Origin: Allobosea sp. AAP35
Lineage (GTDB): Bacteria; Pseudomonadota; Alphaproteobacteria; Rhizobiales; Beijerinckiaceae
NCBI RefSeq assembly: GCF_001295925.1
Contig: NZ_LJHQ01000010.1
Span: forward strand, 1-64,000
DNA length: 64,000 bases
Direction: 5' to 3'
A model generated the notes under the pieces. It was not told the origin of the DNA, made no database searches, and saw only the letters and a program-made list of their open reading frames with translations. The position numbers and the translations under genes were made by a program. Below, piece by piece: positions 20,422-32,059 of this stretch (its first letter is position 1; every line of letters begins with the position of its first letter).

Positions 20422-20547
20422 CCAGGCAAAGGTCGGCCGCCGCCTTTCATATGTCATATTTTGACAACACCGTTGCGTCGGCGCATCAGTGCCGCGCTGT
20501 GACCGGACTCGCGTCGAGTTTCGGCCGCCCGGGAGTTGTTCGAGATC

Positions 20548-22839
20548 GTGTCAGCCTCAGCCAGTGACGTCAGGATCGTGCCGCGCGCCGAGGATACGCC
20601 GCGTCGCGTCTCGGGATGGCTTGGTGCGACCGTCGTCGTGTTTGCGCTCGTCTCCGCCCTCGTCACTTTTCTGGTGCTCTCGGGCGTCACTCCGGTTGTT
20701 CCTGTCCATGAGGTCGTCGTCGGCGTCTTCGTCCTGAACGGCTTCCTGATCTTGCTGCTGCTGGTGGTCGTCGCCTTCGAAGCGGCGGTGCTGATCCGGG
20801 CGCGGCGTGCGGGTGCAGCCGCGGCGGGGCTGCATGTCCGGATCGTCGGGCTCTTCAGCATCATTGCCGCGCTGCCGGCGATTCTGGTCGCGATCATCGC
20901 CACGGTGACGATCGAGCGCGGTCTCGAACCCTGGTTCTCGGACCGCATGCGCGACGCGATCTTCCGCTCGGTCGATGTCGCCGACGCCTATGCGGGCGCG
21001 CAGTGCCAATCGCTCGGACGGGAGATCCGCCTGCTGGCCGACGATCTGTCGCGTGCCAAGGCGGCCTATGATGTTGACCGCAAATGGTTCGAAACATTCT
21101 TGACCGCCCGCGCGACGGCGCTGGGCGTGCCGGTGGTCGCGATCCTGCAGCCGCCCGACAAGGTCCTCGTCCGCGCCAATATCGATGTGCTGCGCGGCGC
21201 CCCAAAGCCTGACGAAGCCGCGTTCGAGGACGCTCAGTCGTCCCCCGAACCGATTTGCGTCGTGCCCTCCGCCGGCCGCATCTTCGGTGCGCTGGTCAAG
21301 TTGCCGGCCTATGACAATGCCTTTCTGCACATCGCCCGCGAGGTCGATCCGCTTGCGGTCGAATTCCCGGCCGTGGCCCGGGCGGCGGCGGCGGAATATC
21401 TGTCGATCGATGCGCGTCGCAAGGGTGTCCAGATTGCCTTCGCCTCGATGTACGGGCTGATCGCCTTCATTCTGCTGCTCTCGGCGATCTGGCTCGGTCT
21501 ATCCTTCGCCAACGGCCTTGTGGCGCCGATCCGGCGCATGATCCATGCCACCGACCAGGTGTCGAGCGGCAATTTCTACGTTCAGGTGCCGATCCGCCGC
21601 TCGGAGGGGGACCTCGCCCATCTCGGCGAGACCTTCAACAAGATGACAGCCGAACTGCGCCGCCAGCGTGATGGTCTAGTCACGGCCAGCGAGGTCATCG
21701 ACCGCAGGCGGCGCTTCACCGAAACCGTGCTCTCGGGCGTCTCTTCGGGCGTACTCAGCCTGGATGCAGACGGGCACATCACCATCATCAACCGCTCGGC
21801 CGAAGCACTTCTGGCGACGGGCGGCCGGCTGCTGGGCGAATCGATCGCATTGGTCGCCCCCGAGATCGCGGCCTTCGTGACCGACGCCTTGCAGGGACGC
21901 CAGCGCCAGAGTTCCGGCCAGATCGCGATCACGCGCGGCGGGCGGGACCGCATGGTCAATGTCCGCGCCGTCCGCGAAGGCGAGGGCGTCGGGGCCGGGT
22001 TGGTGATCACGTTGGACGACATCACCGACCTCGTCTCGGCCCAGCGCACCGCCGCCTGGGCGGATGTGGCCCGCCGCATCGCCCATGAAATCAAAAACCC
22101 GCTGACGCCGATCCAGCTCTCGGCTGAACGCATTCGCCGCAAGTTCGGCCGCGTGATCGTCGAGGACAAGGACATCTTCGATCAGTGCACGGCAACGATC
22201 GTGCGCCAGGTCGAGGACATCCGGCGCATGGTCGACGAGTTTTCATCCTTCGCCCGCATGCCGAAGCCGTCGCTCATGCAGGACGACATCGCCGAGACCG
22301 TGCGCCAGATCATCTTCCTGATGCGCGTGGGCAACCCTGAACTCACGATCACGGAGAACCTGCCGGAGGGATCGGTCCCGGCCCGGTTCGACCGGCGGCT
22401 GGTGTCGCAGGCGCTCACCAATGTCATCAAGAACGCGACGGAAGCGATCGAGGCCGTGCCGATGGACCAGCGCGGCCCGGGTCGCATCGACGTTGTCTTT
22501 GAGCGGCGCGAGGATGGACGGCTCGTCATCGATGTCATCGACAACGGCAAGGGCCTGCCGGCAGACCAGCGCCAGAAGCTGCTGGAGCCCTACATGACCA
22601 CCCGCGAAGGCGGCACCGGGCTCGGTCTCGCCATCGTCGGCAAGATTCTCGAGGACCATGGCGGCGGGATCGAACTGCTGGATCGGCCCGATATGTCCGA
22701 GGGACGGCGCGGCGCGCGCGTCAGGCTCTGGTTCCCCGAAGGCGGGCCGCCGGCCGACGAGAACCCGGTGGGCAGCGGCGGCGACCAAGGGCATGGCGCG
22801 GCGGCAGGACGTGAAAAGCATGATGGGATACGGGCATGA
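20548..22839 (+). CDS. ntrY: Membrane sensor histidine kinase NtrY
   Basis: A 763-residue kinase. Several N-terminal membrane helices (about the first 110 residues) and another near 300 flank a periplasmic domain. HAMP, PAS, HisKA ([15 protein letters not shown]) and ATPase (N-A-T-E-A, D-N-G-K-G-L-P, G-T-G-L-G-L-A-I-V) domains follow. The NtrYX system links nitrogen, redox or respiratory signals in Rhizobiales and Brucella. A GTG start at 20548 is chosen over the TTG at 20536 because of spacing to GGGAG. Its stop overlaps ntrX by four bases. Confidence 0.94.
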   Translation: MSASASDVRIVPRAEDTPRRVSGWLGATVVVFALVSALVTFLVLSGVTPVVPVHEVVVGVFVLNGFLILLLLVVVAFEAAVLIRARRAGAAAAGLHVRIVGLFSIIAALPAILVAIIATVTIERGLEPWFSDRMRDAIFRSVDVADAYAGAQCQSLGREIRLLADDLSRAKAAYDVDRKWFETFLTARATALGVPVVAILQPPDKVLVRANIDVLRGAPKPDEAAFEDAQSSPEPICVVPSAGRIFGALVKLPAYDNAFLHIAREVDPLAVEFPAVARAAAAEYLSIDARRKGVQIAFASMYGLIAFILLLSAIWLGLSFANGLVAPIRRMIHATDQVSSGNFYVQVPIRRSEGDLAHLGETFNKMTAELRRQRDGLVTASEVIDRRRRFTETVLSGVSSGVLSLDADGHITIINRSAEALLATGGRLLGESIALVAPEIAAFVTDALQGRQRQSSGQIAITRGGRDRMVNVRAVREGEGVGAGLVITLDDITDLVSAQRTAAWADVARRIAHEIKNPLTPIQLSAERIRRKFGRVIVEDKDIFDQCTATIVRQVEDIRRMVDEFSSFARMPKPSLMQDDIAETVRQIIFLMRVGNPELTITENLPEGSVPARFDRRLVSQALTNVIKNATEAIEAVPMDQRGPGRIDVVFERREDGRLVIDVIDNGKGLPADQRQKLLEPYMTTREGGTGLGLAIVGKILEDHGGGIELLDRPDMSEGRRGARVRLWFPEGGPPADENPVGSGGDQGHGAAAGREKHDGIRA

Positions 22840-24203
22840 GCGCTGACATTCTGGTCGTCGATGACGAGACCGACATTCGCGAACTGGTCGCAGGCCTGCT
22901 CGAGGACGAAGGCTATCGCACCCGTAAGGCGGGTTCGGCCGACGAGGCGCTCGCCGCCATCGCTGCGCGACGGCCGAACTTGGTCTTCCTCGACATCTGG
23001 CTGCAGGGCAGCCGCCTCGACGGACTTCAGGTGCTGGAACTTATCAAGCAGGGCCATCCCGATCTCGCCGTCGTCATGATTTCCGGCCACGGCAACATCG
23101 AGACGGCGGTGTCCGCCATCAAGAGCGGCGCCTATGACTTCATTGAGAAGCCCTTCAAGGCCGATCGACTCGTGCTCGTTGCAGAACGTGCGCTCGAGGC
23201 GTCGCGGCTGCGCCGCGAGGTTCGCGAACTCAAGAAGGGCTCGGTTCAGGCCAGCCGCATCGTCGGACGTTCGACCACGGTCAACCAATTGCGGCAGACG
23301 ATCGAGCGCATCGCGCCGACAAATGCGCGCGTGCTGATCACGGGCGAGCCGGGCTGCGGCAAGGAACTGGCCGCGCGCACCCTGCATGAGGCCTCGACGA
23401 GGTCCTCGGGGCCCTTTGTCGTGATCAACGCCGCGACGATCACGCCCGAGACGATGGAGGAGGAGTTGTTCGGCGTCGAGGCCGGTGAGGGCCGCTCGCG
23501 CCGGGTCGGCGCGCTCGAGGAGGCCCATGGCGGCTCGCTCTATATCGACGAGATTGGCGACATGCCGCGCGAGACCCAGAACCGTATCCTGCGCGTGCTG
23601 GTCGACCAGAACTTCCAGCGCGTCGGCGGCGCAACCCGGGTCCATGTCGATGTCCGGATCATCTCCTCGACCAGCCGCGACCTGGCTCAGTTGATCGCCG
23701 ACGGGCAATTCCGCGAGGATCTCTATCACCGCCTGTCGGTGGTGCCGGTGAAGGTGCCGCCGCTCTCCGAGCGGCGGGAGGATGTGCCGGAACTGATCGA
23801 ATTCTTCATGGACCAGATCTCGGTTGCATCGGGCCTGCCCAAGCGCCGCATTGGACCGGACGCGATGGCGGTGCTGCAATCGCATGAATGGCCGGGCAAC
23901 GTCCGAGAGCTGCGCAACAATGTCGAGCGGCTGATGATCCTGACCAAGGGTGATCACACCGCCGACATCACGATCGACATGCTGCCAGCCGAGGTCGGCG
24001 CCATGGTCCCGACGACGCCGTCGGGATCGGGCGGCGAACGTCTGATGAGCCTGCCACTGCGCGACGCGCGCGAGATTTTCGAGCGCGAGTATCTGATCGC
24101 GCAAATCGCGCGCTTCTCGGGCAACATTTCGCGCACCGCCGAGTTCATCGGCATGGAGCGCTCCGCGCTGCACCGCAAGCTGAAGTCGCTCGGGGTGGGT
24201 TGA
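22836..24203 (+). CDS. ntrX: Response regulator NtrX
   Basis: A 455-residue NtrC-family regulator. Receiver with D53 (F-L-D-I-W-L), AAA+ domain with Walker A G-E-P-G-C-G-K-E and Walker B G-G-S-L-Y-I-D-E-I, and a Fis-like C terminus (T-A-E-F-I-G-M-E-R-S-A-L-H-R-K-L). The place of the sigma-54 contact loop reads F-G-V-E-A-G-E-G-R-S-R-R-V-G-A, so GAFTGA is missing. It therefore probably does not activate sigma-54, in line with other NtrX proteins. The ATG overlaps the ntrY stop (ATGA), indicating coupling. Confidence 0.95.
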   Translation: MSADILVVDDETDIRELVAGLLEDEGYRTRKAGSADEALAAIAARRPNLVFLDIWLQGSRLDGLQVLELIKQGHPDLAVVMISGHGNIETAVSAIKSGAYDFIEKPFKADRLVLVAERALEASRLRREVRELKKGSVQASRIVGRSTTVNQLRQTIERIAPTNARVLITGEPGCGKELAARTLHEASTRSSGPFVVINAATITPETMEEELFGVEAGEGRSRRVGALEEAHGGSLYIDEIGDMPRETQNRILRVLVDQNFQRVGGATRVHVDVRIISSTSRDLAQLIADGQFREDLYHRLSVVPVKVPPLSERREDVPELIEFFMDQISVASGLPKRRIGPDAMAVLQSHEWPGNVRELRNNVERLMILTKGDHTADITIDMLPAEVGAMVPTTPSGSGGERLMSLPLRDAREIFEREYLIAQIARFSGNISRTAEFIGMERSALHRKLKSLGVG

Positions 24204-24260
24204 AACCCTATTTCAGGCGCATTCTGCATGCGTGCCTGCGTGCAGCGCAGGCAATCGCTG

Positions 24261-24275
24261 CATTGCAAAGCAATG
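24261..24275. promoter_or_regulatory. Perfect palindrome upstream of hfq
   Basis: CATTGC-AAA-GCAATG is a perfect 6-bp inverted repeat in the 214-base gap between ntrX and hfq. Wider flanks (TGCA on both sides) extend partial symmetry. It has no T-run, so an operator is more likely than a terminator. The binding protein is unknown. Confidence 0.35.
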
Positions 24276-24417
24276 TTGCACTTGCGTTGTCGGCTGACTC
24301 GACGATCTAATGAACCGTCGGTGTCTCGAAGCGGCGGGCATTCGCCTGCGCCGCGAACGGGACGAAATGGATCGCGGGCTTGAACCCGATCAGCGATCCC
24401 AACAACAGGGGCTACCC

Positions 24418-24666
24418 ATGGCCGCAGAGCGGGCACAAAATCTACAGGACACGTTCCTCAACTATGTACGCAAGCAGAAGATTCCGCTCACCATCTTCCT
24501 CGTCAACGGCGTGAAGCTCCAGGGTGTCGTGACCTGGTTTGACAATTTCTGCGTGCTGCTGCGTCGCGACGGGCATTCGCAGCTCGTTTACAAGCACGCC
24601 ATCTCGACCATCATGCCCGGCCAGCCGGTGCAGCTGTTCGAGCCCGAGGAACAGGACAAGGCCTGA
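24418..24666 (+). CDS. hfq: RNA chaperone Hfq
   Basis: An 82-residue Sm-like protein that pairs small RNAs with mRNAs. Sm1 is N-L-Q-D-T-F-L-N...[11 protein letters not shown] and Sm2 is the [10 protein letters not shown] signature. The ATG at 24418 is preceded by AGGGG; the frame is open upstream but the Hfq N terminus [11 protein letters not shown] fixes the start. hflX follows after five bases, the common hfq-hflX pairing. Confidence 0.97.
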
Positions 24667-24671
24667 CCCCG

Positions 24672-26054
24672 ATGAGCGCCCGCAGCGATGCGGATGAGGC
24701 ACGGGCGGCTGTGAAGCCGCTCGATGCCATCGAACGCGAGATCGCCGCCAACACCCGCGCCTATGTGATCGGCCCCTACCAGCAGCGCCGCGGCGCCAGC
24801 GACGCCAACCAGCGCTCTTTTGCTGCGCGGCTCGACGAGGCGGTGGGGCTGGCTGCCGCCATTGATCTGACTGTCGTCGAGCCAATCCAGGTCATGCTCA
24901 CCGCGCTGCGGCCGGCGACTTATCTCGGCAAGGGCAAGGTCGAGGAGATCGCCGAGCGCATCAGGATCGAGGAGATCGGCCTAATCGTGATGGATTGCGC
25001 GCTGTCGCCGGTCCAGCAGCGCAATCTGGAGAAGGCCTTCGGCTGCAAGGTCATCGACCGCACCGGCCTGATCCTGGAGATCTTCGGCCGCCGCGCGCGC
25101 ACCAAGGAAGGCGCGCTGCAGGTCGAACTCGCCCATCTCAATTACCAGAAGAGCCGGCTTGTCCGGTCCTGGACCCATCTGGAGCGCCAGCGCGGCGGCT
25201 TCGGCTTTCTCGGCGGCCCCGGCGAAACCCAGATCGAGGCCGATCGGCGCATCATCCAGGAGCGCATGACCAAGATCGAGCGCGATCTCGAAGCGGTCAA
25301 GCGCACGCGCGGGCTCCACCGCGCCAGCCGCAAGCGCGTGCCTTATCCGGTGGTTGCGCTGGTCGGCTACACCAATGCCGGCAAGTCGACCCTGTTCAAC
25401 CGCCTGACCTCGGCGGAGGTCCTGGCGCAGGACATGCTGTTTGCCACGCTCGACCCGACCGCGCGCGCGCTCAAGCTGCCGCATGGCGCCAGGATCATGC
25501 TGTCGGACACGGTCGGATTCATCTCCGATCTGCCGACGCAGCTCGTCGCCGCCTTCCGCGCCACGCTGGAGGATGCGATCGAGGCCGACGTCCTGCTGCA
25601 TATCCGCGACGTCGCGCATGAGGACACGCAGGCGCAGGCTGCCGATGTGCAAGCGATCCTGCGCGATCTCGGGATCGACCCCGATGATGGCCAGCGTGTG
25701 GTCGAGGTCTGGAACAAATCCGATCTGCTGACCCCGGAGGAGCGAGAGCGCCAGCTCGGTCTGGCCGGGTTGAAGCCTGAAGTCTCGCGTCCGGTTCTGG
25801 TATCGGCGGTGACCGGAGACGGCATGGGGCGGCTGACCGACGCGATCGAGATGCGGATCGCCCGCAGCCGGCCGATCTACCGCCTGTCGCTGGCGCCCGG
25901 CGACGGGCAATCCTTGGCCTGGCTGCATGCCAATGGCGAGGTTCTCGACCGAAGCGATGCCGAGGACGGCGCCCTGGCCCTGCGGGTGCGGCTCCCGCCG
26001 GAGCGAGAAGGGGCCTTCGGGGCGCGATTCCCGCAAGCAGAACGCGACAACTGA
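24672..26054 (+). CDS. hflX: Ribosome-associated GTPase HflX
   Basis: A 460-residue GTPase that binds 50S subunits and splits stalled ribosomes in known cases. The N-terminal HflX domain contains [11 protein letters not shown] and a [15 protein letters not shown] segment. The G domain has Walker [18 protein letters not shown] and N-K-S-D. Directly downstream of hfq, with which it shares an operon in most proteobacteria. Confidence 0.96.
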
Positions 26055-26171: not shown

Positions 26172-27707
26172 ATGGCCACGAGCCATGACGAGGTCGTTGC
26201 CTTCCTTAAAGCTGATGCCGAAGCTGGCGTTGCCGATGCCCGCACGATCATAACGCATATCTCGACCGTCCTGCTCATCGGCGAGCGGGCGTTCAAGCTG
26301 AAACGGCCCGTCGCGCTGCCTTATGTCGATTTCTCCACGCCGGAGAAGCGGCTGGCGGCTTGCGAGCGCGAATTGCTGCTGAACCGTCGCACAGCGCCGA
26401 TGCTCTATCTCGCGGTGCACCGCATCACTCGTGAAAGCAACGGGGGGCTGGCGTTCGATGGGGCCGGCCAACTCGTCGATGCCGTGGTCGAGATGGTGCG
26501 GTTCGATGGCAACGGGCTGTTCGACACGATGGCCGGGGAGGGCCGGCTCACACCCGCCTTGATGACGGCGCTGGCGCAGCGGATCGCAGCGTTCCATGCC
26601 GAAGCCGAGATCGACCGCAGCCGGGGCGGGGCGCGGGCGATGGCGGGCGTGCTGGACATCAATGCGCGCGGCCTCGCGCTGACGAATCTGTTTTCCGCCG
26701 AGGATGTCGCCACGCTAAACGGCGCCTGCCAGGCGGCGCTCATCGGCCATGGCGCGCTGTTGGACGCCCGGGGGCGCGAAGGCAAGATCCGTCGCTGCCA
26801 TGGCGATCTCCACCTGCGCAACATCTGCCTGGTCGATGGCGTTCCGACCCTGTTCGACTGCCTCGAATTCGACGAGGCGCTGGCGACCACGGATGTTCTC
26901 TACGACCTCGCCTTTGTGCTGATGGACCTCTGGCATCGGGGCCTGCAAGGCTGTGCCAACACGCTGCTGAACCGCTTTCTGGACGAGACGGGAGACGAGG
27001 AGGGCCTGCCGCTGCTGCCCTTCTTCATCGCCGTCCGCGCGACGGTACGGGCCCATGTCGTCGCACTGCAGGCGAGGGGCACAAGCGTTGACGCCGGAGC
27101 GCGGCGAGCTGAGGCGCAGTCCTATCTCGATCTGGCGCTGGCCTGCCTTTGGCCTTGCGAACCTCGGCTCGTCGCGGTCGGCGGCTTGTCGGGCTCAGGC
27201 AAGTCCTCGGTCGCGGCAGCTGTCGCGCCGGAGATCGGCCCGGTGCCCGGCGCGCGCATTCTCGCCAGCGACCGGCTGCGCAAGAGACGTTTCGGCGTGG
27301 CCGCCGAAACGCGGTTGGCGCCCGAGGCCTATCGCCCGGAGGTCTCCGCTGCCGTCTATGCGCAGATGAGCGAGGATGCGGCCCGAATCCTGCGCCTTGG
27401 CCATGGCGTCGTCACTGATGCGGTGTTCGACCGTGAGCCGGATCGCGAGCATATCGAAAAGGTCGCCATTCAGGCAGGAGTGCGCTTCCAGGGGCTGTGG
27501 CTCGAAGCCGGTCTCGACACACTGATCCGCCGCGTCGAGGCGCGTCGTCATGATGCATCCGATGCGACCGCCGACATCGTCCGCCAGCAGGCAATCCGGC
27601 GGCCCACGAGCGTCGGCTGGCCGCGGCTGGACGCCGAGGCGGGTCCCGAGGCGGTCTCCCGGGAAGCGCGCCACATCGTGGGGAGCCGGCCGCCGCGCCT
27701 GGCCTGA
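26172..27707 (+). CDS. Bifunctional phosphotransferase-like/ATP-binding (AAA kinase) protein
   Basis: A 511-residue two-domain protein. The N-terminal part (about 1-325) resembles aminoglycoside phosphotransferase or kinase folds: F-K-L-K-R-P-V-A-L-P-Y-V-D-F-S-T, then C-H-G-D-L-H-L-R-N-I and D-C-L-E-F-D. The C-terminal part (about 340-505) is a P-loop kinase (G-L-S-G-S-G-K-S-S-V-A). Such genes are widespread and often near oxygen- or stress-responsive loci, as here. The substrate is unknown. ATG 26172 gives the family N terminus. Confidence 0.82.
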   Translation: MATSHDEVVAFLKADAEAGVADARTIITHISTVLLIGERAFKLKRPVALPYVDFSTPEKRLAACERELLLNRRTAPMLYLAVHRITRESNGGLAFDGAGQLVDAVVEMVRFDGNGLFDTMAGEGRLTPALMTALAQRIAAFHAEAEIDRSRGGARAMAGVLDINARGLALTNLFSAEDVATLNGACQAALIGHGALLDARGREGKIRRCHGDLHLRNICLVDGVPTLFDCLEFDEALATTDVLYDLAFVLMDLWHRGLQGCANTLLNRFLDETGDEEGLPLLPFFIAVRATVRAHVVALQARGTSVDAGARRAEAQSYLDLALACLWPCEPRLVAVGGLSGSGKSSVAAAVAPEIGPVPGARILASDRLRKRRFGVAAETRLAPEAYRPEVSAAVYAQMSEDAARILRLGHGVVTDAVFDREPDREHIEKVAIQAGVRFQGLWLEAGLDTLIRRVEARRHDASDATADIVRQQAIRRPTSVGWPRLDAEAGPEAVSREARHIVGSRPPRLA

Positions 27708-27809
27708 CCCGATCCGAAACGGAGAGGACGCATTCGGCTCCTGACGCTCAGTTCGATCGCATGGTCGTGGATGCGTGACGCCACGAAAGCGCGCCCGGGA
27801 GCGGCTGGC

Positions 27810-27850
27810 TTGATCTTGCTCAAGGCTGACGTGCCGATACGCCCTATCAT
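27810..27850 (+). promoter_or_regulatory. FixK/FNR box with a class II promoter layout
   Basis: TTGA-TCTTGC-TCAA (27810-27823) matches the FixK consensus TTGA-N6-TCAA, and differs by one base from TTGAT-N4-ATCAA. A -10-like TATCAT lies at 27845-27850. A start point near 27857 would put the box centre at about -40.5, the normal class II position. A gene for a FixK-type regulator lies 1.5 kb away. Confidence 0.6.
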
Positions 27851-27876
27851 GCCCTTACATGCAGAAGGACGTTGTC

Positions 27877-27954
27877 ATGGGCATCAAGAGGAACGGCTCG
27901 CTCCGGCCCGCGACTCTCGTCTCGGCCGCGGCGGCCGGGCAGGCGGCGGCGTGA
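27877..27954 (+). CDS. Candidate 25-residue ORF behind the FixK box
   Basis: ATG at 27877 follows AGAAGGA by seven bases, a strong site, and the frame ends at TGA 27952-27954. The product would be M-G-I-K-R-N-G-S-L-R-P-A-T-L-V plus an Ala-rich tail. It could be a leader peptide, a remnant of a longer gene or a chance ORF. The predicted transcript start is only about 20 bases upstream. Confidence 0.3.
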   Translation: MGIKRNGSLRPATLVSAAAAGQAAA

Positions 27955-27988: not shown

Positions 27989-28516
27989 ATGCCAGTGGGC
28001 CACGCCATGCAAGGGGGGTATACCGTCGCGCCTCTGTCGCCGGAGACGAGCGACGCCGCCTTTCTGCTGGTCGGCGCGCTGGCGCCGGGGCTGGGGATCG
28101 CGCGCTGGCGGCGCTATTGCGATGGTCCGGACGCTGGCGCGGGCGCAAGCGAGCCCCGGCTTGAGGTTCGTGTCGCGATCAATCCACGCGGGCATGTGCA
28201 GGGCTTGTGCCTGTGGTCGCAGGCAAGGCACGCGGTTCATGGCCGCATTCTTGACGTTCCCATCTTCATCGTCGCCAGTGCCGCCGACGAATCCGGCGTC
28301 GCGGCGGCGCTCGTGGAGGATCTGTGCACGATCGCCGGCCGGCTCGACTGCGCGGCGCTGCGCATCCGCAGCGAAGCTTCGCCCCGGTTGCTCGCTCAGT
28401 TTCAAGTGCCCAAGCGGCGGGATGGCCGCAGCATCGCCCTGATTCTCGATCCCCACCCGCTTCTCGACGCGCCCTGGGGGCCGTCTCAGGACGACAGTTT
28501 GCCCGTGAAGACATAG
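27989..28516 (+). CDS. GNAT-like protein of unknown function
   Basis: A 175-residue soluble protein. The central region (V-R-V-A-I-N-P-R-G-H-V-Q-G-L-C-L, then L-D-V-P-I-F-I-V and A-L-V-E-D-L-C-T-I-A-G-R-L-D-C-A-A-L-R-I) follows the strand-helix order of GNAT acetyltransferases, but the acetyl-CoA loop is not clear. The ATG at 27989 has GAGGAG upstream. It is downstream of the predicted FixK promoter. Its 3' end overlaps the convergent response regulator gene by 31 bases. The fold call is tentative. Confidence 0.55.
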   Translation: MPVGHAMQGGYTVAPLSPETSDAAFLLVGALAPGLGIARWRRYCDGPDAGAGASEPRLEVRVAINPRGHVQGLCLWSQARHAVHGRILDVPIFIVASAADESGVAAALVEDLCTIAGRLDCAALRIRSEASPRLLAQFQVPKRRDGRSIALILDPHPLLDAPWGPSQDDSLPVKT

Positions 28517-29211
28517 CCGATGCCGCGCACCGACTTGATCAGGGTCGGCCGTTTCGGATCGGACTCGATCTTCTTGCGCAGCCGCGCGATCTGCGCGTCG
28601 ATCGTGCGGTCGAAGGCTTCGAGGCTGCGGCCATGGGTGAGATCCATCAGCACGTCGCGCGAAAACACCCGGCCAGGATAGCGCGCCAGCGCCGCCAGCA
28701 TCTCGAACTCGCCGGTGGTGAGAATGATTTCCCTGTTGTCGGCCGTGACGAGTTGCCGGCAGCCGAGATCCAGCCGCCACCCCTCGAAATGGATGGTTTC
28801 ATCCGCCGCAACGCGCGCCGGCGCCGCAGGCTGCCGGCGCCGCAGGACGGTCCGCAGCCGCGCCAGGACCTCGCGCAGGTGAAACGGCTTGGGGATGTAG
28901 TCGTCTGCACCGATCTCGAGACCGACGATCCTGTCGACGACGTCGTCGCGCCCGGTCAGCATGATGATCGGGACATCCGAGCGGGCGCGAACCTCGCGCG
29001 CCAGCATCAGGCCGTCCTCGCCACCGGGCAGGATGAGGTCGAGCAGGATGATGTCAATCGTCAGCCGCTGCAGACAGTCGCGCATCGCCGCGCCGTCGGC
29101 GGCGGCCGTGACGCGATAGCCTTCATCTTCGAAGTAGGAGATCAGCATCTGCCGAATGCGAACATCGTCATCCACGACCAGGATGTGTTCGTTGCGGGCT
29201 GGCTCGGTCAT
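28486..29211 (-). CDS. OmpR/PhoB-family response regulator (FxkR-like)
   Basis: A 241-residue regulator. Receiver with D58 (I-I-L-L-D-L-I-L-P-G-G-E), T and K positions in M-L-T-G-R-D-D and D-D-Y-I-P-K-P-F. The C-terminal winged helix has L-T-T-G-E-F-E-M-L, V-F-S-R-D-V-L-M, I-D-A-Q-I-A-R-L-R-K-K-I and S-V-R-G-I-G-Y-V-F. No classical kinase is adjacent, but it is divergent from fixK and a hybrid FixL. That arrangement recalls R. etli FxkR, the response regulator between hFixL and fixK. The start at 29211 is chosen over the ORF's first codon at 29259, which would run through the promoter repeats. Confidence 0.85.
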   Translation of the reverse strand: MTEPARNEHILVVDDDVRIRQMLISYFEDEGYRVTAAADGAAMRDCLQRLTIDIILLDLILPGGEDGLMLAREVRARSDVPIIMLTGRDDVVDRIVGLEIGADDYIPKPFHLREVLARLRTVLRRRQPAAPARVAADETIHFEGWRLDLGCRQLVTADNREIILTTGEFEMLAALARYPGRVFSRDVLMDLTHGRSLEAFDRTIDAQIARLRKKIESDPKRPTLIKSVRGIGYVFTGKLSS

Positions 29212-29244
29212 ATCGGGCCGTTCGATTCCTTCGCCGACATCCGC

Positions 29245-29260
29245 GTCACAAACCGTCACA
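29245..29260 (+). promoter_or_regulatory. Direct repeat GTCACA-N4-GTCACA, K-box-like operator
   Basis: Two identical GTCACA half-sites are separated by four bases, a ten-base period typical of OmpR-family binding. It lies in the divergent region between the response regulator and fixK, 91 bases before the fixK start. From memory, R. etli fixK promoters carry a K-box of the form GTTACA-N4-GTTACA bound by FxkR. A second pair of repeats, GTTACCG at 29275 and 29297 (22 bases apart), is nearby. Confidence 0.5.
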
Positions 29261-29310
29261 TTTTCGCACGGGCTGTTACCGTGGCGGCGTTCGGCCGTTA
29301 CCGGACTCGG

Positions 29311-29337
29311 TTCAATTCGGCACGTCGATCAATTGAA
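29311..29337. promoter_or_regulatory. Inverted repeat in the fixK leader
   Basis: TTCAATT (29311-29317) and AATTGAA (29331-29337) form perfect 7-base arms around 13 bases, just upstream of the fixK start at 29351. It could be an operator or a leader hairpin. It does not match TTGA-N6-TCAA. Confidence 0.35.
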
Positions 29338-29350
29338 GGATGACGCGCCG

Positions 29351-30103
29351 ATGCTTTCGCAAGCCACCATGTCACAGCCGCACGCGGCTGTCAGGCAATT
29401 CGCGACGGTTAAGCCCCGGGCCAGCCTCAACAGCCTGTTCGGCGGCCAGCCGATCGAGACCTTCGAGCCCGGTACCGCCGTGTTCTGGGAGGGCGACGAG
29501 GCGCGCCATGTCTTCGAGGTCGTGGAGGGCGTGCTGCGGGTGTTCCGCATTCTCAGCGACGGGCGCCGCGTCATCACCGGCTTCCTCTACCCCGGCGATC
29601 TGCTCGGGGTCTCGCTGAAGGAGCAGTACCTCTACACCGCCGAAGCCGTGACCCGCACAAAACTGCGGCGTTACGAGCATGGGCGCTTCCAGGACGAGAT
29701 CAACCGTTCCCCCGAGCTTCGCCCGCAACTCTTCGCCTGCCTCTGCGACGAGATGGCCGCGGCCCAGGACCAGATGGTCCTGCTCGCCCGCAAGAGCGCC
29801 GAGGAGCGCGTCGCGAGCTTTCTGCTTGTGATCGCGAGGCGGCTGCTGGGCGACGAGCGCCAGCCGGTGATCGAGATCCCGATGACGCGGCTCGACATGG
29901 CCGACTATCTCGGCCTGACGATCGAGACGGTATCGCGCACGATGACGCGGCTGACCAATTGCGGCGTCATCGCGCCCAGCAGCCGCCACGCGATGGTTGT
30001 GCGCAAACTCGGCAAGCTCGCCGTTCTTGCAGGGGAGGGTGATGCCGACGATAAATGCGCGGCCGGATTCGGCGGGGTCCAGCAGGCGGTCTGGCCGAAC
30101 TGA
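29351..30103 (+). CDS. fixK: Crp/Fnr-family regulator, FixK type
   Basis: A 250-residue transcription factor. It has a cyclic-nucleotide-like sensor domain (about 25-150, G-T-A-V-F-W-E-G-D...G-F-L-Y-P-G-D-L-L-G) and a helix-turn-helix with M-A-D-Y-L-G-L-T-I-E-T-V-S-R-T. The E-T-V-S-R recognition helix is that of proteins that read TTGAT half-sites. The N-terminal cysteine cluster of FNR is absent, so it should not sense oxygen itself, as in FixK. It stands directly before a FixL-type kinase. ATG 29351 has AAGGA twelve bases upstream. Confidence 0.85.
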   Translation: MLSQATMSQPHAAVRQFATVKPRASLNSLFGGQPIETFEPGTAVFWEGDEARHVFEVVEGVLRVFRILSDGRRVITGFLYPGDLLGVSLKEQYLYTAEAVTRTKLRRYEHGRFQDEINRSPELRPQLFACLCDEMAAAQDQMVLLARKSAEERVASFLLVIARRLLGDERQPVIEIPMTRLDMADYLGLTIETVSRTMTRLTNCGVIAPSSRHAMVVRKLGKLAVLAGEGDADDKCAAGFGGVQQAVWPN

Positions 30104-30130
30104 ACGAGAGCGTCGAGGTTTCGTCGAGAT

Positions 30131-32059
30131 ATGAGAGACACGACTGCGAGCGAGTTCAGCCTCGAGGATTTCGCGCGCATTCTCGACAGCGCCAACATCA
30201 TCGTCCACGGGTTTGACGGCGTCGTCACCCGCTGGACCAGCGGCTCGGAGGCGCTCTATGGCTGGTCGCGGGCAGAGGCGCTCGGCCAGATCGCCTTTGA
30301 CCTGCTCGAGACGGTGTTTCCGCAGCCGCTGGCGGACATCGCGGCGCATCTGCGCAAGGATGGCGTCTGGACCGGGGAGCTGACACAGCGCCGGAAGGAC
30401 GGCACGGTGATTTCTGTCGCCAGCCGTTGGGTCGTGACCGATTCGCGCGGGGGCGACGATTTCGCCATCGTCGAAACCAATGTCGACGTCAGCGATCTGC
30501 GCACGATGCAGGCCCATCTCGTCGCGCGCGAGGCGCATCTGCGCTCGATCCTGGACACGGTTCCCGAGGCGATGGTGGTCATCGACGACAAGGGCACCAT
30601 CACCTCCTTCAGTGCCGCGGCCGAGCGGCTCTTCGGCTACGACACCAGCGAAGCGGTCGGGCGCAATGTCCGCATGCTGATGCCGCAGCCGGACTGCGAC
30701 CGCCATGACGGCTACATGAACCGCTATCTCGACACCGGAGAGCGTCGCATCATCGGCTATGGCCGGGTCGTCACCGGTCAGAAGAAGGACGGCACGCATT
30801 TTCCGATGGAGCTGGCGATCGGCGAGGCGCGCGCCGCCGGCCGCCGGATCTTCACCGGCTTCATCCGCGACCTGACGAGCCGCCACAGGATCGAGGAGGA
30901 GCTGCGCCAGGCTCACAAGATGGAAGCCGTCGGCCAGCTCACCGGCGGCATCGCCCATGATTTCAACAACCTTCTCACCGTGGTCAGCGGCAATCTCGAG
31001 ATGATCGAGCGGCGCCTCACAGACGACCGCTCGCGCGCCTTGCTGCGCGAGGCGCAAAGCGCGGCCGAGGACGGCGCCAAGCTGACCGCGCAACTGCTCG
31101 CCTTCGGGCGCAAGCAGCCGCTCAACGCCAAGCTCGCCGATGTCGGCCAGCTCGTCTCGCAGTTCTCGCATCTGCTGCGCCGCGCACTCGGCGAGGCGAT
31201 CGAGCTGCGCACCATCGTGTCGGGCTCGCCGGGCACCGCGCTGGTCGATTCGTCGCAGCTCCAGAACGCCCTGCTCAATCTCGCGCTGAACGCTCGCGAC
31301 GCGATGCCGCGCGGCGGGCGCCTGACCGTCGAGATCTCGACCGCCCGGCTCGATTCCGATTATGCGAGCATGTATCCGGACGTCCGGACCGGCAGCTATG
31401 TGCTGATTGCCGTCACCGATACCGGCAGCGGCATGTCGGCCGAGGTCCGCCAGCGCGCTTTCGAGCCGTTCTTCACCACCAAGGGCGTCGGGGCGGGCAC
31501 CGGGTTGGGGCTCAGCATGGTCTATGGCTTCACCAAGCAGTCGGGCGGGCATGTCCAGCTCTATAGCGAGGTCGGGCAGGGGACGAGCGTGCGGCTGTTC
31601 CTGCCGGCGGCCAGCGCGGCGTTGCGAGACGTCCCGCCGACGGTGTCGGAGGGCCACGCGCCTCAGACAAGGCTGCCTGGTGGATCCGAGACGATTCTCG
31701 TGGTTGAGGACGATGCGCGGGTGCGGCGGGTCGCCGTCGCGCGGCTCGAGGATACCGGCTACCGCGTGCTGGAGGCAAAAACCGCCGCCGAGGCCCTGCG
31801 GATGCTGGCGTCCCACCCCGAGATCGCCCTGCTCTTCACGGATATCGTCATGCCCGGCGGCATGTCGGGCGACGAATTGGCGCGCGAAGCCCGCCTGCTG
31901 ATGCCTGCTCTCAAGATCATCATGACCTCGGGCTTTGCCGAGCCGAGTGTCGTGGTGCGGGAATTTGCGGCCGAAGCGAGCTGGCTAAAGAAGCCTTACA
32001 GCGCGATGGAACTGGCGGTCCGCATCCGCGATTTGCTCGACGAGCGCCCCGCCGCTTAG
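30131..32059 (+). CDS. fixL: Hybrid FixL-type oxygen-sensing histidine kinase with receiver
   Basis: A 642-residue soluble kinase. It has a first PAS (about 10-125) and a second PAS (about 135-255) with the FixL heme signature: H192 in D-R-H-D-G-Y corresponds to the proximal heme histidine, and R212 in G-Y-G-R-V-V-T-G to the distal arginine. Their spacing of 20 equals H200/R220 in Bradyrhizobium FixL. HisKA follows with H276 (I-A-H-D-F-N-N), then the ATPase domain ([15 protein letters not shown]). A C-terminal receiver has D571 (F-T-D-I-V-M-P-G-G). No membrane segments. A fused receiver marks the hFixL type, which needs a partner other than FixJ. Confidence 0.9.

Follow-up and report, generated by a model that had tools for sequence, protein, structure and literature searches.

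The subject of this analysis is a compact locus at positions 28486-32059 of the 64,000-nucleotide stretch of DNA analysed here (contig NZ_LJHQ01000010.1 of Allobosea sp. AAP35, positions 1 to 64,000; hereafter the window). A preliminary description, made from the sequence alone, had assigned its three genes, coding for a FixK-type regulator, a hybrid heme-PAS kinase and an OmpR-type response regulator, to an oxygen-sensing cassette of the hFixL-FxkR-FixK type. The open reading frames (ORFs) of fxkR, fixK and hfixL were found at the coordinates and on the strands claimed, with the FixK-type gene followed by the kinase gene and the regulator gene divergent; they are listed in Table 1 together with a further gene, orfX, the start codon of which was picked from an alignment, and with the elements of the fixK promoter. 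With regard to genus naming, two related strains are now placed under Allobosea at NCBI. As argued below, the locus is very probably a true oxygen-response cassette of the hFixL-FxkR-FixK pathway, carried by an alphaproteobacterium of the Bosea group: gene content, orthology, operator, the lack of a FixJ over the family cut-off and the linkage to orfX can all be read from the DNA.

Table 1. Genes and promoter elements of the locus (positions refer to the window).
Feature	Position	Strand	Basis or remark
fxkR, OmpR-type response regulator, FxkR clade	28486-29211	-	Pfam Response_reg and Trans_reg_C; 67% identity to known FxkR proteins
fixK, CRP/FNR-family regulator without N-terminal cysteine cluster	29351-30103	+	Pfam cNMP_binding and HTH_Crp_2
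hfixL, PAS, heme-PAS (H192, R212), HisKA/HATPase_c and Response_reg domains	30131-32059	+	Pfam
orfX, 169-aa GNAT-fold protein (predicted)	28007-28516	+	Convergent with fxkR, the two overlapping by 31 bp; putative fourth gene of the cassette
K-box variant GTCACA-N4-GTCACA, half-sites 1 and 2	29245-29260	+	Pattern match, between fxkR and fixK
Extended operator, half-sites 3 and 4	29265-29280	+	10-bp phase continued from the K-box
Fifth conserved GTNAC, upstream of the -10 element	29297-29301	+	Promoter stack
Predicted -10 element TCAATT of the fixK promoter	29312-29317	+	TNNANT conserved; position transferred from the Rlv3841 fixK9a start site (PMC7888657)

The regulator is 67% identical both to the FxkR of Rhizobium etli plasmid p42f and to the product of pRL9 27191-27916 of R. 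leguminosarum 3841 (Rlv3841), whereas other matches in its own genome reach at most 45%. The pRL9 gene was identified as fxkR9 because its start site and neighbours are those described in the available part of PMC7888657, and the R. etli FxkR was assigned by similarity, since among 14 p42f matches it stands far ahead of the next one (33%). A tree of 56 rows was constructed with a quick method without bootstrap and flagged for its long paralogue branches. In it, the window protein, the R. etli p42f protein, FxkR9 and 41 others formed one clade of 44 rows with a support of 95, and the 12 paralogues (11 from the own genome, one from p42f) stood on one side of a branch with a support of 99. The regulator thus clusters with FxkR and apart from its paralogues, as the preliminary description had predicted.

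The kinase shows 61.9% identity over 99% of its length to a protein of R. etli CFN42 p42f, the gene of which is located directly behind a CRP-type gene and beside ccoOQP genes; this pair, which carries no such names in the record, is taken as hFixL and FixKf by similarity and layout. The best paralogue in the own genome has 42% identity across most of the protein, or 52% when the kinase-receiver part is compared, and the hFixL of a congener genome (G027) is 89% identical. H192 and R212, which we take to be the proximal histidine and the distal arginine of the heme pocket, do not vary among the 11 proteins aligned, S. meliloti FixL being one of them, and the best PAS matches were to solved FixL heme-PAS structures, namely 1d06 over residues 130-249 (E value 5.6e-45) and 1dp6 over residues 133-259 (E value 1.4e-43). 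A C-terminal receiver (Response_reg at 522-632) is fused to the kinase, and all ten hFixL proteins compared have H276, D571 and K621. The view of this protein as a hybrid heme-PAS FixL therefore stands, including the residue numbering, and by analogy with known relatives its second PAS domain would bind heme.

FixK is 55% identical to FixK9b and 48% to FixK9a of Rlv3841 and 49% to the R. etli protein, with six other matches in the own genome at 38% or less, and its sequence contains no cysteine in the N-terminal part. Four N-terminal cysteines were recognized by eye in another CRP protein of the same genome (L165:3169-3888), which therefore probably also has an FNR-type sensor. Furthermore, a second FixK-like regulator (L166:4328-5158, contig G000:C9) lies near an ORF judged NosR-like by eye, which suggests control of denitrification. 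The three cassette genes might be neighbours by chance, the kinase being a PAS hybrid of a general kind, the OmpR-type regulator unrelated and the CRP protein a general one, and the abundance of such proteins in the genome (the kinase query has 41 matches and the regulator query 47, many through single shared domains) would leave room for this; however, given the identity gap to the paralogues, the FxkR clade, the K-box and a layout kept across families, we regard this explanation as scarcely credible.

The preliminary description had also proposed a FixJ-independent switch. No fixJ gene is present within the window, and no FixJ over the family cut-off was found elsewhere in the genome, which is 99.97% complete (best score 197.6 bits against a cut-off of 255). 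A candidate with 44% identity to S. meliloti FixJ (G000:C9:14938-15522) was rejected because it scores under the family cut-off and forms the C-terminal module of a protein of 1561 aa; this protein (L167:6900-11585) ends in a FixJ-like receiver-LuxR module, and its N-terminal parts appear CheB/CheR-like by eye. Among 67 genomes of the genus, own included, a cross-count gave six with both hFixL and FixJ, 13 with hFixL only, nine with FixJ only and 39 with neither. The claim of FixJ independence hence applies to this genome and fails as a rule, and a mutual exclusion of hFixL and FixJ within the genus had to be discarded on account of the six genomes that carry both.

Upstream of fixK, the K-box variant GTCACAAACCGTCACA is the only match to GTYACA-N4-GTYACA in the 4.46 Mb genome, with none for the reversed-pattern control. 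Neither this element nor orfX figured in the preliminary description. Its half-sites differ from the published GTTACA-N4-GTTACA by one base in each half, and it is located 90 bp from the fixK start, as compared to 85 bp for GTTACACACTGTTACA in R. etli. Shuffles of the window, with one mismatch allowed, contained at least one K-box match in 12 of 100 cases, so that place and uniqueness weigh more than the bare match. Together with the orthology of the proteins and the FxkR clade, the K-box at nearly the R. etli distance supports the view that the gene set is that of the hFixL-FxkR-FixK pathway.

The conserved operator is, as judged from 52 non-redundant promoters, longer than the 16-bp K-box and comprises four half-sites in 10-bp phase and a GTNAC before the -10 element. 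In an alignment of 23 fixK upstream regions (the window, 19 other cassettes and three R. etli/Rlv promoters), AC steps recurred every 10 bp, invariant or nearly so. For a gap-free stack, 78 promoters were aligned by their K-box, of which 52 were left after removal of redundancy at 75% identity; AC was found at offsets 3, 13, 23, 33 and 55 in 52, 51, 50, 44 and 50 of these, respectively, whereas no other offset had it in more than 25. Offsets 0-15 are conserved by the construction of the stack, so that new evidence, partly reflecting shared descent, comes from the offsets beyond: A23 and C24 of half-site 3 in 51 and 51 promoters, A33 and C34 of half-site 4 in 46 and 50, the G, T, A and C of the fifth GTNAC in 46, 49, 51 and 50, and the T, A and T of a TNNANT -10 element from offset 67 in 43, 42 and 48 of 52. 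The pattern is seen whether a divergent fxkR is present (37 promoters) or absent (15 promoters). The idea that the GTNAC at 29297 is part of the divergent fxkR promoter was rejected, since it is kept in 15 of 15 promoters lacking the divergent gene; it more likely belongs to the fixK promoter. When the promoters were aligned on the fixK9a start site reported for Rlv3841 (PMC7888657, available part), half-site 4 ended a few bases upstream of the -35 region, and fixK transcription in the window would start near 29322. The full extended pattern occurs once in the genome, even with two mismatches allowed, which suggests that FxkR probably has one target region here. No description of the extended operator was found in the searchable literature, the scope of which did not include Zamorano-Sanchez 2012, reportedly the founding FxkR paper, and Reyes-Gonzalez 2016, said to be its S. 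meliloti counterpart; these may describe more.

As for the putative output of FixK, an anaerobox, TTGATCAATATCAA, is located 81 bp upstream of the start of the sole ccoN match in the genome. In total, 14 anaerobox-like sites were detected as compared to one for the reversed-pattern control; neighbouring ORFs were listed at all 14 sites and one ORF was scanned at each of ten. Pfam matches were obtained at eight of the ten: ccoN, manganese catalase, cyclopropane synthetase, Clp ATPase, an HWE/HisKA_2 kinase, a CRP protein, DUF3604 and a baeRF/host-attachment protein. The strict anaerobox pattern was found in none of 21 fxkR-fixK intergenic regions; this pattern misses the anaerobox reported between fixK9b and fxkR9 (PMC7888657, available part), so weaker sites are possible in these regions.

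The distribution of the cassette was surveyed in the best 80 hFixL loci from one collection scan. Among 150 related genomes, 23 contain hFixL at an E value of 1e-180 or better, namely the window genome, 18 of 66 other members of the genus and four more distant ones. FixK is encoded directly upstream of hfixL at 77 of the best 80 loci, 53 of which have a divergent fxkR, and the K-box of the 77 shows no mismatch in 44, one in 32 and two in one. The three loci left out are L118, which is rearranged, L162, which is cut by a contig end, and L163, where the genes are present with a partial hFixL match. Families named among the best 80 loci are Rhizobiaceae, Alloboseaceae, Beijerinckiaceae, Kaistiaceae, Xanthobacteraceae and Acidocellaceae; Bosea, several Rhizobiales and one Alphaproteobacteria record have no family placement in the survey. 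The available part of PMC4999443 proposes that the pathway arose in an ancestor of the Rhizobiaceae, which cassettes in five further named families call into question; a transfer out of the Rhizobiaceae is possible as well. At one locus of Acidisoma sp. L85 (L089, Acidocellaceae), a full cassette with orfX stands near Bosea in the FxkR and FixK trees and might have been acquired horizontally. One genome of the genus has two cassettes (G017:C49, L063, and G017:C42, L069), and at two loci from other genera of the family (L070 and L071, in G080 and G076) the genes are rearranged, with regulator and kinase close together and fixK displaced. In Bosea the cassette occupies at least two different neighbourhoods; in the window, a run resembling ntrY-ntrX-hfq-hflX was seen by eye in the ORF list at 20536-26054.

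The system shares with the pathway of R. etli CFN42 and Rlv3841 its three proteins, the heme-PAS residues, the fused receiver and a K-box at a near-equal distance from fixK; it differs in its GTCACA half-sites and in the presence of orfX, and the R. etli regulator gene lies about 20 kb from fixK-hfixL on p42f, whereas here all are together. The preliminary description had stressed this union in one locus, and although the genes are indeed together, the arrangement is not distinctive: it is found in 53 of the best 80 loci and, according to the available part of PMC7888657, fxkRc-fixKc-hfixLc (RL1879-1881) are likewise clustered on the Rlv3841 chromosome, with no K-box or anaerobox reported in their intergenic region, where the locus studied here has a K-box. 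On pRltTA1A of R. leguminosarum bv. trifolii TA1, at about 46-50 kb, orfX, fxkR, fixK and hfixL are contiguous in the orientations seen here, but plasmid-borne, with orfX annotated as a hypothetical protein and with identities of 57% (response regulator), 46% (FixK) and 59% (hFixL). FixLJ-FixK of S. meliloti and Bradyrhizobium has the same heme-PAS type and FixK as output, but differs from the present case, where no FixJ over the cut-off was found, the kinase core is nearer CckA and a receiver is fused.

A homologue of orfX occupies the matching place in 37 of the 53 divergent cassettes from the best 80 loci, and four other loci have one as well (one partial weak match); sequence comparison thus indicates that orfX is often part of the cassette. 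It has no homologue in the other 16, where a relaxed profile search of surveyed-locus ORFs revealed no convincing distant relative (converging ORFs listed in 14 of 16), and the stretches fetched from R. etli and pRL9 gave no match to it either. The window protein has no Pfam or NCBIfam match, and Acetyltransf_1 was obtained in nine of 38 OrfX members at E values up to 1 (best 0.001), which is weak sequence support. The AlphaFold model (predicted local distance difference test score 82.8) shows a GNAT fold; 49 of the 50 Foldseek matches listed are titled acetyl- or acyltransferases or their complexes, with one uninformative title, and the best has an E value of 3.6e-6, a probability of 1.00 and template modelling scores of about 0.5-0.6. 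By its predicted fold, OrfX would belong to the GNAT superfamily. Members of this superfamily bind coenzyme A with a loop of the form Q/R-x-x-G-x-G/A. The loop of OrfX, placed by eye before the third helix, reads D-E-S-G-V-A, with D94 at the Q/R position, and is hence not canonical; D94 is conserved in at least 90% of the 38 members.

Moreover, the ratio of nonsynonymous to synonymous substitution rates (dN/dS) of orfX, measured outside the overlap with synonymous sites half-saturated, was 0.24 and 0.46 against two relatives, so that orfX appears to be under purifying selection. Distances between OrfX and FxkR were correlated over 35 loci (Mantel r 0.82, reached in none of 2000 permutations), as were those between the response regulator and FixK (0.87) or hFixL (0.89), a result that shared descent alone could give. 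OrfX matches at an E value of 1e-4 or better were detected in 37 of 150 relatives, and 12 of the 13 strong ones (1e-15 or better) occur in genomes with hFixL. The loci of 30 of 39 matches were fetched: 11 lie beside fxkR and 19 beside a CRP/FNR gene on the opposite strand, 17 of these 19 neighbours having four to six cysteines within the 60 residues that precede the aligned part. Most of these 19 loci come from a single genus and are not independent of one another, and the matches are mostly weak (1e-7 to 1e-8); that the weak matches all lie beside FNR-type genes argues against a general GNAT similarity. The one locus examined among the nine remaining matches (L229, G008:C11:1142000-1157000) has a distant orfX relative opposite an FNR-type gene, and this relative lies a few kb from a fixL-fixJ-fixK-like cluster.

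No description of a role of orfX beside the switch was found in the searchable literature, the founding FxkR papers being outside its scope; GNATs tabulated in PMC6515984 and PMC3751524 gave no further clue. A GNAT acting on a transcription regulator in an oxygen-controlled system is described for BadL of Rhodopseudomonas palustris (PMC6191541, available part), likened here by description and not by sequence; BadL is linked to the Rrf2-type regulator BadM. We tentatively put forward that orfX encodes a component of oxygen control in alphaproteobacteria that has so far escaped recognition, namely a protein of GNAT fold, perhaps without the usual acetyl-CoA binding, which is genetically tied to FixK/FnrN-type regulators and might alter the activity of the latter by binding, by modification or by making a ligand, and that the operator of FxkR consists of an array of several sites, with the published K-box perhaps only its distal part. 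It is just as conceivable, and an idea we hold no more firmly, that orfX is a passenger gene without a role in the switch, as its absences from cassettes and from the R. etli and pRL9 stretches would allow and as its faster evolution than that of its neighbours fxkR, fixK and hfixL might indicate; the matching place of orfX across the six named families, the distance correlation within the limit just given and the CRP/FNR neighbour in 19 of 19 fetched loci outside the cassette speak against a passenger.

Several observations count against a genuine oxygen-response cassette. The gaps in the distribution of orfX are one; besides, the split between cassette FixKs and other CRP proteins in the FixK tree has a support of only 78, and R. 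etli FixKf and Rlv FixK9a form a separate long-branched pair in it. In addition, the kinase core is nearer CckA than FixL, so that phosphate may take a less simple route. Under family models, hFixL scored 430.5 bits with PRK13557, a general kinase family, 337.8 and 313.8 with CckA and 280.6 with FixL, a model that has no receiver; all four scores are under their cut-offs, those for CckA being 1000. The best solved relative of the core is likewise CckA (5idj, 181 bits, as compared to at most 81 for FixL-kinase chimeras). From its sequence, hFixL seems to combine a FixL-type sensor with a CckA-like hybrid kinase. In the CckA-ChpT-CtrA phosphorelay, phosphate passes through a histidine phosphotransfer protein (HPt), ChpT, to CtrA, which is OmpR-type as FxkR is. 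The invariant H276, D571 and K621 would also suit such a relay, in which hFixL phosphate would pass via its own receiver (D571) and an unlinked HPt, e.g., ChpT, to FxkR rather than straight from H276. Beside the cassettes, no HPt gene was noticed, no search aimed at HPt genes or ChpT having been made, and the available part of PMC7888657 names hFixL-FxkR a two-component system; the relay is considered unlikely, if less so than the alternatives of silence or chance.

Finally, the available part of PMC7888657 reports no significant induction of fixKc and fxkRc in bacteroids, and layout alone is accordingly no proof of an oxygen response. By the same token, the present genes might be orthologous and the locus nonetheless silent or constitutive, without oxygen switching, as considered for the Rlv3841 chromosomal cluster; since that cluster is reported to lack K-boxes, while here an intact operator aligns with the R. 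etli and pRL9 promoters and dN/dS is 0.09-0.21 for fxkR, fixK and hfixL, we judge this improbable. For the oxygen-response cassette that we favour, we propose by analogy with the known pathway that under low oxygen O2 would leave the heme of the second hFixL PAS domain and the kinase would be activated, that phosphate would pass to FxkR, which would bind the row of half-sites, arranged in 10-bp phase, that directly precedes the fixK -35 region and would switch on fixK-hfixL, and that FixK would then activate anaerobox promoters, e.g., that of the cbb3 oxidase.

Taken together, the cassette itself appears to be a further case of a known pathway, to which the extended operator and orfX are additions. 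A pathway known mainly from legume symbionts would thereby be extended to Bosea, Methylovirgula, Kaistia, Ancylobacter and Acidisoma, the sharper FxkR operator may be used for mapping regulons, and the orfX family, with its links to oxygen regulators of the FixK as well as the FNR type, offers a lead worth following.

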